Shown: in pieces, positions 14,804 to 24,493 of the stretch
Layout of the letters: every line of letters starts with the position of its first letter
How positions within the stretch are numbered: position 1 is the stretch's first letter
Assembly (NCBI GenBank): GCA_016182045.1
Contig: JACOYE010000007.1
Location: forward strand, 1 to 34,120
Direction of reading: 5' to 3'
DNA from: Candidatus Microgenomates bacterium
GTDB lineage: Bacteria > Patescibacteriota > Microgenomatia > Daviesbacterales > UBA10151
DNA: 34,120 bases
The notes under the pieces: generated by a model
Database searches by the model: none
The model's input: only the letters and a program-made list of their open reading frames with translations
What the model was told of the DNA's origin: nothing
Position numbers and translations under genes: made by a program

Positions 14804-15499
14804 TTATTTACCAAAGTTCCTCTTTTGAGTTTGGTACCAAGATATTGCCTTTTTAATCTCTTGAGGGCCAAAATCCGGCCACAAAGTCTTGGTAAAATAA
14901 AATTCTGAATAAGCTGTCTGCCAAAGCAAAAAATTAGACAATCTGCTTCTTCCTCCGGTTCTTATGACCAGCTCCGGATCAGGTTGGCCATTGGTATATA
15001 AATGTTTTTCAAGCAGTTTTTCATTTATCCTGTTCACCTCAATCCCCTCTTTGACTATATCTTTAACAGCATCCAGAAGCTCTTTTTTCCCTCCATAATT
15101 TAGGGCAATATTAAGCTTAATAGATTCATTTTTAATGTAGGTATTTCTGATGGCACCAATAATTCGCTTGATAGTGCCTGGAAGCCCTTCCAGCTCACCT
15201 AAGATAGCTACCCTCACCCCTCTTTGCATCATTTTTCTTAATTTAGTTTGATATCCTGTTCTCATCAAATTAAATAACCCCCAAACTTCTCTTTTGGCCC
15301 GTTCTTTGATATTCTCAGTAGATAAAGCATAAACTGTGATAGTTTTAACCCCTAAATCTTCTGCAGTCTCAACTATTTTTTCCAAAGTATCAGCCCCTGC
15401 CTCATGACCCTTAATATCAGGTAAGTTTCGGGCTCTGGCCCATCTTCTGTTTCCATCCATAATAATGGCAATATGGGAAGGAATATTCTTAATATTCAT
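14804..15499 (-). CDS. uppS: Isoprenyl (undecaprenyl) diphosphate synthase, cis-type
   Basis: HIAIIMDGNRRWARARNLPDIKGHEAG, YALSTENIKER, DPELVIRTGGRSRLSNFLLWQTAYSEFYF. Confidence 0.95.
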   Translation of the reverse strand: MNIKNIPSHIAIIMDGNRRWARARNLPDIKGHEAGADTLEKIVETAEDLGVKTITVYALSTENIKERAKREVWGLFNLMRTGYQTKLRKMMQRGVRVAILGELEGLPGTIKRIIGAIRNTYIKNESIKLNIALNYGGKKELLDAVKDIVKEGIEVNRINEKLLEKHLYTNGQPDPELVIRTGGRSRLSNFLLWQTAYSEFYFTKTLWPDFGPQEIKKAISWYQTQKRNFGK

Positions 15500-15533
15500 A
15501 TAATCATTATAACCGTTATAACTATTATAGATG

Positions 15534-16364
15534 TTATTTCTTCCTTTCCACCAAATATTCTGCCATCTGTTTAAGTAATTTACTCATTTTCGGATCTTTG
15601 GTGATACTGGGCAGCAATTTTATAGCTTGATTTTTATAATGAATTGCCTGTTCCAATTCAAAAGTACCATCTCCATCTAAGATATCATCTTTAATCTGAA
15701 AAGCAATCCCAAGATTTACTCCATAAAGCCCCAACAACTTTACTAACTCTTCTTTTGCTCCCCCCAAAATGGCTCCCAGCTGCAACGGTCCGGCAATGGT
15801 ATAGTGGGCTGTTTTTAACTTGGCAATCAGTATAGGATCAGTTTTTTCCAAATCTAATATTTGTCCCAGGGCAGTATTAACTATGGTATCAAAAAAAAGC
15901 TTTAGAGCTTCCAGTTTTCTCTGATTGTCAAACTCAGCTTCAGTTATAATTTTGAAGCTTAGGAAAAAGCCCAAATCAGCAAGACTTATTGCTTGTGAGA
16001 TACCATAGTGTCCACCACCCAGAGCTTTATATAAAGAGGGCTGACCTCGTCTCAAAAGACTCTCATCTATGATATCATCATGAATCAGGATGGCTGTATG
16101 AAAAATCTCATAAGCAGCTCCAACTTTTATTATGTCTGGCGACTGAAGACTGACTGCTGATGACTGATTGCCAATCTCATATCCCAGTCTAACCAGCGTT
16201 CCCCTAATCCTTTTCCCACCTTGACATGCCTTAATAAATGCTTTGGCTAAAGGAATAAGTTTGGGGCTTATACCTTCTACTTCTTTAAGCCATACACCTA
16301 AGATCGATTGGATCTCTCTATCCAGCTCTTGTGCAGAATGCTCAAGATAACTTTTAAAATCCAT
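15534..16364 (-). CDS. Polyprenyl synthetase family protein (trans-prenyltransferase, FPP/GGPP type)
   Basis: LIHDDIIDESLLRRGQPS (first Asp-rich motif) and FQIKDDILD (second). Confidence 0.93.
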   Translation of the reverse strand: MDFKSYLEHSAQELDREIQSILGVWLKEVEGISPKLIPLAKAFIKACQGGKRIRGTLVRLGYEIGNQSSAVSLQSPDIIKVGAAYEIFHTAILIHDDIIDESLLRRGQPSLYKALGGGHYGISQAISLADLGFFLSFKIITEAEFDNQRKLEALKLFFDTIVNTALGQILDLEKTDPILIAKLKTAHYTIAGPLQLGAILGGAKEELVKLLGLYGVNLGIAFQIKDDILDGDGTFELEQAIHYKNQAIKLLPSITKDPKMSKLLKQMAEYLVERKK

Positions 16365-17648: not shown

Positions 17649-17679
17649 AGCGAAGTCCGCCTAAGGCGGACGAGCGACC
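17649..17679. repeat. Intergenic palindrome AGCGAAGTCCGCCTAAGGCGGACGAGCG
   Basis: Core GTCCGCCTAAGGCGGAC; near-identical copy at 28207-28233. Confidence 0.9.
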
Positions 17680-19996: not shown

Positions 19997-20308
19997 ATGA
20001 GTAGTCCAGTAACTATTTGGCGGTCACATAAAAAACTAAGTGCCTATTTAAACAAAGAAGGTAGGTTGGTTATTTGGACCAAAATTTATGTGGCCCCTGT
20101 CGGTTTTGAACATCAGGTTCCCTATCTGGTGGGAATTGTTCAATTTGATCCGCCAGCTGGCGGAGAAAGAATGCCCTTACAAATTGTTGATTGTGAAGAA
20201 CAGGATTTAAAAGTAAATCAAAAAGTAGTTACTGTCATTAGAAGAATTGGTAAGACAAAATCTGAAGATGTGATTGAATACGGCCTTAAAGTAAAACCAC
20301 GTTCATGA
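19997..20308 (+). CDS. DUF35 OB-fold protein, partner of thiolase/HMGS
   Basis: GRLVIWTKIYVAPVGFEHQVPYLVGIVQF...VVTVIRRIGK; position after thiolase/HMGS as in archaeal operons. Confidence 0.75.
   Translation: MSSPVTIWRSHKKLSAYLNKEGRLVIWTKIYVAPVGFEHQVPYLVGIVQFDPPAGGERMPLQIVDCEEQDLKVNQKVVTVIRRIGKTKSEDVIEYGLKVKPRS
20149..20164. repeat. 16-bp perfect palindrome TCCGCCAGCTGGCGGA inside the DUF35 CDS
   Basis: Identical palindrome at 31956-31971 in the ligase CDS. Confidence 0.95.
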
Positions 20309-21326: not shown

Positions 21327-22310
21327 ATGAATAAAAAAATTACTGTTTCAGCTCCGGGAAAATTAATGCTTTTTGGGGAACATGCTGTGATTTATGGCAG
21401 ACCTTGCATTGTCACTGCTGTGGGGCAACGGATGAAGGCTACAGTTGAACTCACCAGTGAACCCATTTTCCAGCTTAATGCTCCTGATATTAATGTTTCA
21501 AATTATAAAAAACCCATCAAGGAGCTTGGACAAGGTGATATCACTAAAGGCGCTAAGTTTGTAGAATTGGCTTTATATAACTATTATAAAAATTATAAAT
21601 ATTATATTAAAAAGCCGGGAATCAAAATTTCCACCAAATCAGAATTTTCCTCCCAATTTGGCTTTGGTTCCTCCTCTGCCTCCACTGTTTGTGTAATTAA
21701 AGCCTTATCAGAATTAACAGAGGCAGACTTAGATAATAAAGCTATTTTTGATTTAGCCTACAAAACAGTCTTAGATATTCAGGGGAAAGGTTCTGGATTT
21801 GATGTGGCAGCAGCTATTTTCGGTGGAACTTTATATTTTTTAACTGGTGGCAAGGTTATTGAACCTCTTAATATTGATACCTTACTATTGGTTGTAGGAT
21901 ATAGCGGCATAAAAACTGACACAGTCACACTTATAAATCAGGTAAAAGAATTAGCAGATAATTATCCGGAAGTGGTGGAAGGCATTTATGATAACATCTC
22001 AAAGCTGGTTGATAGAGCAAAAGCAGCTCTTTTGGCAAAAGATTGGCAAACCCTTGGGCAGCTTATGAATTTTAATGAAGGATATCTTTCAAGCTTGGGA
22101 GTAGAGGGTAAAAAACTTAGCAGTATGATTTATGCAGCAAGGGAAGCTGGGGCATATGGAGCCAAACTTTCTGGGGCAGGAATTGGAGACTGCATGATAG
22201 CTTTGGCCTCACAAAAGAGCAGAAAAGCTGTTGAGCAAGCTATTAACAATGCTGGGGGTCAGGTAATTGATATTAAAGCTAACGTAGAAGGAGTTAGAAT
22301 TGAAAAATAA
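21327..22310 (+). CDS. GHMP kinase, probable phosphomevalonate kinase (or second mevalonate-kinase-like enzyme)
   Basis: VSAPGKLMLFGEHAVIYGRPCIV, SQFGFGSSSASTVCVIKAL, IQGKGSGFDVAAAIFGGTLYF, GAKLSGAGIGDC. Confidence 0.8.
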   Translation: MNKKITVSAPGKLMLFGEHAVIYGRPCIVTAVGQRMKATVELTSEPIFQLNAPDINVSNYKKPIKELGQGDITKGAKFVELALYNYYKNYKYYIKKPGIKISTKSEFSSQFGFGSSSASTVCVIKALSELTEADLDNKAIFDLAYKTVLDIQGKGSGFDVAAAIFGGTLYFLTGGKVIEPLNIDTLLLVVGYSGIKTDTVTLINQVKELADNYPEVVEGIYDNISKLVDRAKAALLAKDWQTLGQLMNFNEGYLSSLGVEGKKLSSMIYAAREAGAYGAKLSGAGIGDCMIALASQKSRKAVEQAINNAGGQVIDIKANVEGVRIEK

Positions 22311-23808
22311 ACAAGAAGAAATTTTTATAGTTGTAGATAAAAATGATAAGGTATTAGGCTACAAACCACGTTCAGTCTGCCATAAAGAACGCTTGTTACA
22401 TAGAACAGCTGCTGTTGCTGTAATGAATAACAAAAGTGAAGTTTTGCTTCAAAAAAGAAGCCGGAATGTTGAGATGAATCCCGGCAAGTATACTCTTTCT
22501 GCATCAGGACATGTAAGTAAAGGTGAAACATATGAGGAGGCTGCACAAAAAGAGCTAAAGGAAGAGTTAGGCATAACTGGCAAATTAAAGTTTGAGAAAA
22601 AAATTATCAAAGATTTTCCAGATCATTTTGAAATGCAGTCTTTTTATACAACAGATTATAATGGTCCCTTTAAAATTCAGAAAGATGAGGTAGAAAAAGT
22701 TGAATTTGTGCCTGTAGATAAGCTTCCTGAATATTTCTCTAAGTCCCTAGCCACAATCAGCATATTCTATAATCAGATCTTAAAAAAGGATACGAAAGCA
22801 ACAGCAATTGGTCCTACCAATATAGCTTTTACCAAATATTGGGGTAAAAAGGATGAAGTTTTCAGGCTACCAGAGAATGGCAGTATATCCATGACTTTAA
22901 GTCATCTTCTGACGACTACCACTGTGGAGTTTTTACCAAAGTATAAAAAAGACCAGATCAGCATCAATGGTTTGTTCACCTCCGAGGTGAGTTCAAGCAG
23001 TAACCCAGCTTACACCTCGGAGGTGTCTGCTGAAAGAGTTATCAAACATTTAGATAGAGTTAGAAAAATGGCTGGTATCCAGGATAAAGCTAAAGTTGTA
23101 TCTAAAAATAATTTCCCTATAGGCACTGGACTTTCATCATCAGCCTCAGGTTTTGCAGCTTTAACATTAGCTGCTTCTAAGGCAGCTGGACTTAAATTAT
23201 CAGAAAAAGAATTATCCATATTAGCAAGGCAAGGGGCCGGTTCTGCTTGCAGGTCTATCCCAGGAGGCTTTGTAGAGTGGCTGGATGGTGATACTTCTGA
23301 CACATCTTATGCTGTCCAGATTTTTCCTCCTAATCATTGGGCAATTTGTGATGTGGTGGCAATTGTTTCTGAAGGGAGAAAAGAAATTTCTTCATCAACA
23401 GGTATGAAAGCTGCTATCTCCTCCCCTTTTATGAAACTTAGGCTTTCCAGAATGAAAGAGAAAAATAAGCTGGTCAAAAAATATATTAAAGAAAGAGATT
23501 TTAAAGCTTTGGGAGAACTGACTGAACAGGAAGCTTTGGAACTTCATACCATCATGCTTACCCAATACCCTCCCCTTATTTATTGGACTCCAGGAACCCT
23601 GCAGATTATGAAACTAACCAGCCACTGGAGAGGAGAGGGAATTCCAGTTTATTTTACCATTAATACTGGCCAGGATATTCACCTTATTTGTGAACAAGCA
23701 AATCTTAAAAAAGTTGTAGCCAAATTAAAAGAGCTGGATTTTGTAAAAAATATTATTGTTAATACTCCAGGAGAAGGCACCAGACTTTCAAAATCACACT
23801 TATTTTAA
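22300..23808 (+). CDS. mvaD: Nudix (IDI-like) domain fused to diphosphomevalonate/phosphomevalonate decarboxylase
   Basis: N-terminal SVCHKERLLHRTAAVAVMN...SGHVSKGETYEEAAQKELKEELGI Nudix box; C-terminal IGPTNIAFTKYWGKKDEVFRLPENGSISMTL, GTGLSSSASGFAALTLAA, GAGSACRSIPGGFVEW. Confidence 0.9.
   Translation: MKNKQEEIFIVVDKNDKVLGYKPRSVCHKERLLHRTAAVAVMNNKSEVLLQKRSRNVEMNPGKYTLSASGHVSKGETYEEAAQKELKEELGITGKLKFEKKIIKDFPDHFEMQSFYTTDYNGPFKIQKDEVEKVEFVPVDKLPEYFSKSLATISIFYNQILKKDTKATAIGPTNIAFTKYWGKKDEVFRLPENGSISMTLSHLLTTTTVEFLPKYKKDQISINGLFTSEVSSSSNPAYTSEVSAERVIKHLDRVRKMAGIQDKAKVVSKNNFPIGTGLSSSASGFAALTLAASKAAGLKLSEKELSILARQGAGSACRSIPGGFVEWLDGDTSDTSYAVQIFPPNHWAICDVVAIVSEGRKEISSSTGMKAAISSPFMKLRLSRMKEKNKLVKKYIKERDFKALGELTEQEALELHTIMLTQYPPLIYWTPGTLQIMKLTSHWRGEGIPVYFTINTGQDIHLICEQANLKKVVAKLKELDFVKNIIVNTPGEGTRLSKSHLF
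22977..23025. repeat. Paired palindromic element CACCTCCGAGGTG ... CACCTCGGAGGTG inside the decarboxylase CDS (copy 2)
   Basis: Units at 22977-22989 and 23013-23025; same architecture as 4936-4985. Confidence 0.9.
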
Positions 23809-23965: not shown

Positions 23966-24493
23966 TCAGAGAATTTTATTTTCCGTCAATACCTTAACTC
24001 CCTCAACTGCCCAAGGAGTATATTTTGAAGGATTTTGTTCAATATCTTGCACAAATTCTCTCTTATTTATCCATGTATATTCATATCCCACCATGGGATC
24101 CATATTAACTTCACCATCATATTCTCCCACCAGAATATAATCATGTTCATTTTCACAAAGCTCACCCACTTTAGCAAAGTAATTAAAAGTTCCAACTTCT
24201 TTCACCAACACATTCTCAATCCCGTATTCATCCTTTAAAGCTCTCAATGCGGCCTCTTTTATACTCTCATCCGAGCCATCAGCTTTATGTAAAAGGTGGG
24301 TTGAAGCAGTGAAGTCCCAAATGTTATCAAAGACCTTATGTTTCCTTCTTTGTAGTAAAACTTCCCCTTTGGAATTGTAAAGTAGCACTGTGACAGCCAG
24401 ATGCCTTTTGCCTTGCCCTGTATGCCCTGCCTCTTTGGGAATATATTCCAAAAAATTACCCTCATCATCACAAGCTAAAATTGTTTGATCCAT
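23966..24493 (-). CDS. IDI-like Nudix protein (isopentenyl-diphosphate delta-isomerase type 1-like)
   Basis: HLAVTVLLYNSKGEVLLQRRKHKVFDNIWDFTASTHLL...LCENEHDYILVGEYDG resembles type 1 IDI including the ExE motif. Confidence 0.75.
   Translation of the reverse strand: MDQTILACDDEGNFLEYIPKEAGHTGQGKRHLAVTVLLYNSKGEVLLQRRKHKVFDNIWDFTASTHLLHKADGSDESIKEAALRALKDEYGIENVLVKEVGTFNYFAKVGELCENEHDYILVGEYDGEVNMDPMVGYEYTWINKREFVQDIEQNPSKYTPWAVEGVKVLTENKIL

Follow-up and report, generated by a model that had tools for sequence, protein, structure and literature searches.

An in-frame palindrome doublet in a mevalonate-diphosphate decarboxylase gene of Candidatus Daviesbacteria, probably a REPIN-like element mobilised by RAYT transposases

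Two inverted 13-bp palindromes with starts 36 nt apart lie in frame inside a mevalonate-diphosphate decarboxylase (MVD) gene of Candidatus Daviesbacteria, at positions 22977-22989 and 23013-23025 of the window, i.e. of the whole 34,120-nucleotide stretch of DNA analysed here. The pair is probably a REP doublet of the REPIN/BIME-like kind, mobilised by RAYTs acting in trans, which the host proteins tolerate in their surface loops.

The doublet in the MVD and TrmH genes

The features of the window that concern the element are the following.

22300-23808, plus strand: host ORF, Nudix (IDI/YfcD-like)-MVD fusion; Pfam NUDIX, MVD-like_N and MDD_C, TIGR01240 at 260 bits
22977-22989, plus strand: hairpin 1 in MVD, CACCTCCGAGGTG, TSEV frame
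22990-23012, plus strand: variable spacer of 23 nt, predicted to form with the arms one 13-bp single-stranded DNA hairpin, z -5.5
23013-23025, plus strand: hairpin 2, CACCTCGGAGGTG, which is hairpin 1 inverted, TSEV frame
4694-5278, minus strand: host ORF, SpoU/TrmH-family RNA 2'-O-methyltransferase; Pfam SpoU_methylase at residues 30-186
4936-4985, minus strand: second copy, in frame within the TrmH/SpoU-type methyltransferase ORF; spacing 37, TSEV then HLGG

A paired palindrome in frame within the MVD domain had been proposed by a sequence-only reading of the window, and a pattern search returned the same positions. The host ORF encodes 502 aa without a stop, and its MVD-like_N match (residues 172-338) spans the insert at residues 226-242. 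The gene is a mevalonate-diphosphate decarboxylase, as that reading had it, but in the form of a fusion with a Nudix domain. The Nudix part is IDI/YfcD-like and, by eye, lacks the cysteine motif NTCCSHP found in type I IDI. The MVD frames of those relatives that were inspected are shorter and unfused to Nudix. A separate second Nudix gene is located at 23966-24493.

In the methyltransferase gene, the palindromes occupy 4936-4948 and 4973-4985, and the insert corresponds to residues 98-115 of the ORF, within the SpoU_methylase match. The reverse complement of the MVD copy had been said to align with the TrmH copy; the two were recovered as inverted repeats I3 and I8. The sharing between the two genes thus stands, but the notion of a local two-copy repeat does not, since the element is spread genome-wide. 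The sequence-only reading named neither the REPIN-like family nor a transposase. Within the window, ACACCTCSGAGGTGT with at most two mismatches has four sites against 0.01 expected, and four were reached in none of 100 shuffles.

Abundance, clade restriction and architecture of the repeat family

The exact pattern CACCTCNGAGGTG occurs 12 times in the source genome of the window (G000; 905 kb, 24 contigs, 92% complete). Five of its pairs are inside conserved genes, namely MVD, TrmH, AspS, TrpRS and GT4. Neither the pair at C1:24061/24109 nor the single hairpin at C13:40104 is crossed by an ORF of at least 100 aa. In the family as a whole we found 203 palindromes, with 32 of the 45 genomes positive and up to 38 palindromes per genome. 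The repeat is restricted mostly to this clade: an even draw of 294 genomes from the phylum contained 21 positive ones including three family members, which leaves approximately 18 of 289 (~6%) outside the family. Those relatives in the family that have names are Candidatus Daviesbacteria. The relatives are metagenome-assembled genomes, and the source genome is split into 24 contigs with a completeness of 92%, which could favour an assembly artefact; chance palindromes were the other trivial reading. Both were rejected, and we give them practically no weight: the reversed-pattern control yielded 0 matches against 12, and the same elements recur in tens of other genomes.

The relative G040 has 19 pairs, and all 19 are in open frames. 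The hosts include UvrA, UvrB, UvrD, DinB, TopA (two pairs), TsaD (two), AspS, MVD, an ATP synthase gamma-type subunit and two GHMP kinases. Insertions of this kind in essential genes number in the dozens across the relatives. With these 19 pairs and the five of the source genome in open frames, the repeat is not predominantly extragenic as REPs are.

The start-to-start spacing within the family is dominated by 36 nt; spacings of 21, 28, 33, 35 and 37 are found less often. In G040, 14 of the 19 pairs have a spacing of 36 and one of 37, the rest being 21, 21 or 28, and 33. REPINs and BIMEs are likewise characterized by a palindrome and its inverted copy, set a preferred and short distance apart. 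The spacer sequence is divergent and has a weak consensus, and when this consensus was used to orient the elements relative to the coding strand, the forward and reverse scores were close for several copies. Folded as single-stranded DNA, the whole element is predicted to form a single hairpin, again as a REPIN doublet does (z from -3.8 to -5.5 in four copies, the MVD copy having -5.5). A GTAG/GTGG or CGTC foot was not found in the nucleotides that precede the hairpins in the pairs listed, a single CGTC being read as chance; the element is therefore classed as REPIN-like and not as a GTAG REP.

The window holds several other repeats. The palindromic repeat AGCGAAGTCCGCCTRAGGCGGACGAGC has two copies, at 17649-17675 and 28207-28233. 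The palindrome TCCGCCAGCTGGCGGA is found in ORFs at 20149-20164 and 31956-31971, where it encodes PPAGG/GPPAGG peptides (in a small protein and a DNA ligase), and is probably another in-frame repeat family. The repeat AGATTGC...CTCGCAATGACG is present at 27386-27419 and 32518-32551, one copy being in the DNA ligase ORF; the MVD insert of L158 resembles the translation of a similar repeat. An AT-rich repeat with a 9-bp period (TTATAACTA) is located in or near ORFs at 15498-15538, 21575-21614 and 30962-31019 and encodes YNSYNSYKNYK-like peptides.

Insertion sites and reading frame

The nearest MVD orthologues without the insert (75-80% identity) are 12 residues shorter at the insert site. This net gain of 12 residues (36 nt) replaces the 25-30 aa suggested earlier; the doublet itself measures 49 nt against the 36 nt gained, and the exact ends of the element are not fixed. 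The TSEV...TSEV segment is not a common property of related decarboxylases, and the proposal of an insertion holds: among 65 aligned orthologues only L148 carries it, which is assigned to G040 by the agreement of the MVD peptides. The MVD of G019, found outside this alignment, has the segment at the same place. The filled site in G000, G019 and G040 could also be explained by an ancestral part of the protein, kept and homogenised by selection on the TSEV/HLxG peptide motif. However, the segment is missing from nearly every other MVD, unrelated proteins share its DNA sequence in two reading frames, and copies exist outside genes too. The ancestral reading is contradicted by the orthologue alignments, and we consider it extremely improbable.

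The MVD loop is insertion-tolerant. In L158 and L171 it is filled by unrelated repeat-derived inserts, and the other aligned orthologues have nothing similar there. The AspS genes of the family contain doublets with other hairpin loops at the same position of the OB-fold, and many AspS orthologues are insert-free; the loops of the two hairpins co-vary and stay complementary (GGG/CCC, CGA/TCG). In four genomes, 20 inserts are each enclosed by one Pfam domain match. MVD, AspS, GT4, DinB, TopA and the CCA enzyme have the same loops filled in several genomes, and some copies may thus be inherited rather than newly inserted.

In the AlphaFold2 model of the MVD with its insert (43 sequences; mean pLDDT 91.5), the confidence is below 50 only at residues 65-77. 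The model places a strand at residues 55-58, a helix at 80-94 and GLSSS at approximately 113-119, in agreement with the earlier placement of the insert after a strand and ahead of the helix that precedes the GHMP motif. The enzyme is probably lengthened by about 12 floppy residues that do it no harm.

The 34 intragenic elements whose frames we compared were chosen as open-frame copies, so that a stop-bearing third frame could not be picked; of their 68 hairpins, 44 read H-L-x-G, 24 read T-S-E-V and none uses the third frame, and the value of (2/3)^34 = 1e-6 overstates the significance because of this preselection. In hairpins of the type TCACC...GGTGA, the third frame holds TGA. A switch between the two open frames accompanies spacings of 28, 35 or 37. 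Since no hairpin uses the third frame, and one type of hairpin has a stop there, translation of the insert is probable, as far as the reading frames tell. The element is able to form a stable hairpin, and the byp elements of yeast mitochondria offer a lead for a different reading, in which it is removed or skipped by bypass or splicing and is not translated. Against this reading, which we regard as very improbable, the stop-bearing frame is unused and the frame is kept across spacings, in copies that were chosen in open frames.

RAYT transposases and relation to known systems

Genes of RAYT-type Y1 transposases were found in 39 of the 45 family genomes. Their products match PF01797 above the cutoff and have the NHFH motif (HUH), and the matches to NF047646, the REP-associated tyrosine transposase, reach 39-53 bits, below the cutoff of 80. 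A sequence search of one RAYT against solved structures gave no match. Most family RAYTs are bracketed by a hairpin specific to the gene: at 41 of 59 RAYT loci the two flanks have in common a word of 12 nt or longer, mostly hairpin-forming, versus 3 of 174 shuffled pairs. Five relatives (G013, G019, G002, G059 and G015) carry the exact palindrome beside their RAYTs, with seven occurrences against 0.08 expected. Three RAYTs were found in the 92%-complete source genome, and the exact CACCTCCGAGGTG is present at none of them. One of these three, at C2:47783-48382, has the end sequence TCCGYAGGTGTNAACCTATTCCACCCCAAGGGTG, solo near-copies of which are located at C4:36700, in frame in a LepA ORF, and at C18:11521; its hairpin alone is present in GatB and a glycosyltransferase. 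RAYT ends thus appear to be scattered through the source genome. Elsewhere in the phylum, in a different family, the segment G089:C51:347-1059 has two hairpin pairs with a spacing of 23 that flank approximately 640 nt, a length that fits a RAYT gene.

The RAYTs flanked by the same hairpin are the probable cause of the insertions. The element would be a non-autonomous mobile element of about 50 nt, in which a variable spacer of 23 nt separates an inverted pair of 13-bp palindromes. The hairpin would be recognised in single-stranded DNA by a Y1 HUH transposase of the RAYT type, which would copy or move the doublet to new sites. Copies that break the frame would be lost, and open-frame copies in tolerant surface loops would persist and be translated.

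The main competitor of RAYT mobilisation, in our view an unlikely one, is a protein-coding palindrome akin to the Rickettsia RPEs, spread by template switching or recombination and with a mobiliser that is unknown. The RAYT hairpins would then look alike because transposon ends share the CACC...GGTG architecture. To our knowledge, RPEs have no known mobiliser or transposase, and the available parts of the RPE papers name none; that no exactly cognate RAYT was found in the source genome fits as well. The exact palindromes at five family RAYTs, far above the expected number, and the dispersal of one RAYT's own ends within the source genome speak against this competitor. RPEs are palindromic selfish DNA found in frame in housekeeping genes (PMC2229807, PMC10969869), and the doublets resemble them in being in-frame insertions in conserved ORFs. 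The RPEs described there are longer, 105-146 bp (PMC2229807).

The closest likeness is to REPINs, which are extragenic REP doublets tied to RAYTs (PMC3116915, PMC8266576). The family shares with REPINs and BIMEs the paired inverted palindromes, the variable spacer, the hairpin fold and the cognate hairpin at RAYTs, the last seen in the five relatives and not found in the 92%-complete source genome. It differs in that the GTAG foot is absent and the copies are mostly within genes and not between them. The start-to-start spacing is mostly 36, and in P. fluorescens SBW25 the distances between next neighbours peak at 71 and 110 bp (PMC3116915).

REPs that lie in frame within genes have precedents in the Rickettsia RPEs and the GTAG/CGTC REPs. 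For the latter, the available portion of one study describes REPs and REP dimers inside ORFs of several bacteria, many in uvrA, uvrB and the UvrD/REP helicase and also in tRNA synthetases (PMC3733652). Occurrence in ORFs, DNA repair genes among them, is common to both cases; tag and sequence differ, that portion of the study includes no Patescibacteria, and the G040 doublets are set apart by their open-frame share of 19 of 19 pairs. REP insertions in tnpA-REP genes (TnpA-Y1 subclass 2.4) are likewise in frame and tolerated in peripheral protein regions (PMC6006769), whereas the hosts here are mainly unrelated housekeeping genes. Our literature search on Patescibacteria, CPR and Microgenomates, which covered little of the subscription literature, found no account of such elements in this phylum among the papers listed.

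Unlike the Rickettsia RPEs, the present family comes with a concrete candidate for the mobiliser, and a single enzyme with a single oligonucleotide would allow a test of how palindromes spread into coding genes. Annotators should be aware that a short loop in such a protein can be a remnant of a transposon. We tentatively speculate, as a possibility that we rate below even, that the hairpin repertoire of protein-coding REPINs is renewed in situ: a small, constant set of surface loops (of MVD, AspS, GT4, DinB, TopA and the CCA enzyme) would be hit again, or both arms rewritten together, by RAYTs of changing specificity, and RAYT-REPIN families would then shape the loops of essential proteins in Patescibacteria. 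The host gene belongs to the core metabolism of a very small bacterium from groundwater, and with this element protein-coding mobile palindromes are extended to the Candidate Phyla Radiation, whose streamlined genomes are a place where selfish DNA was unexpected.
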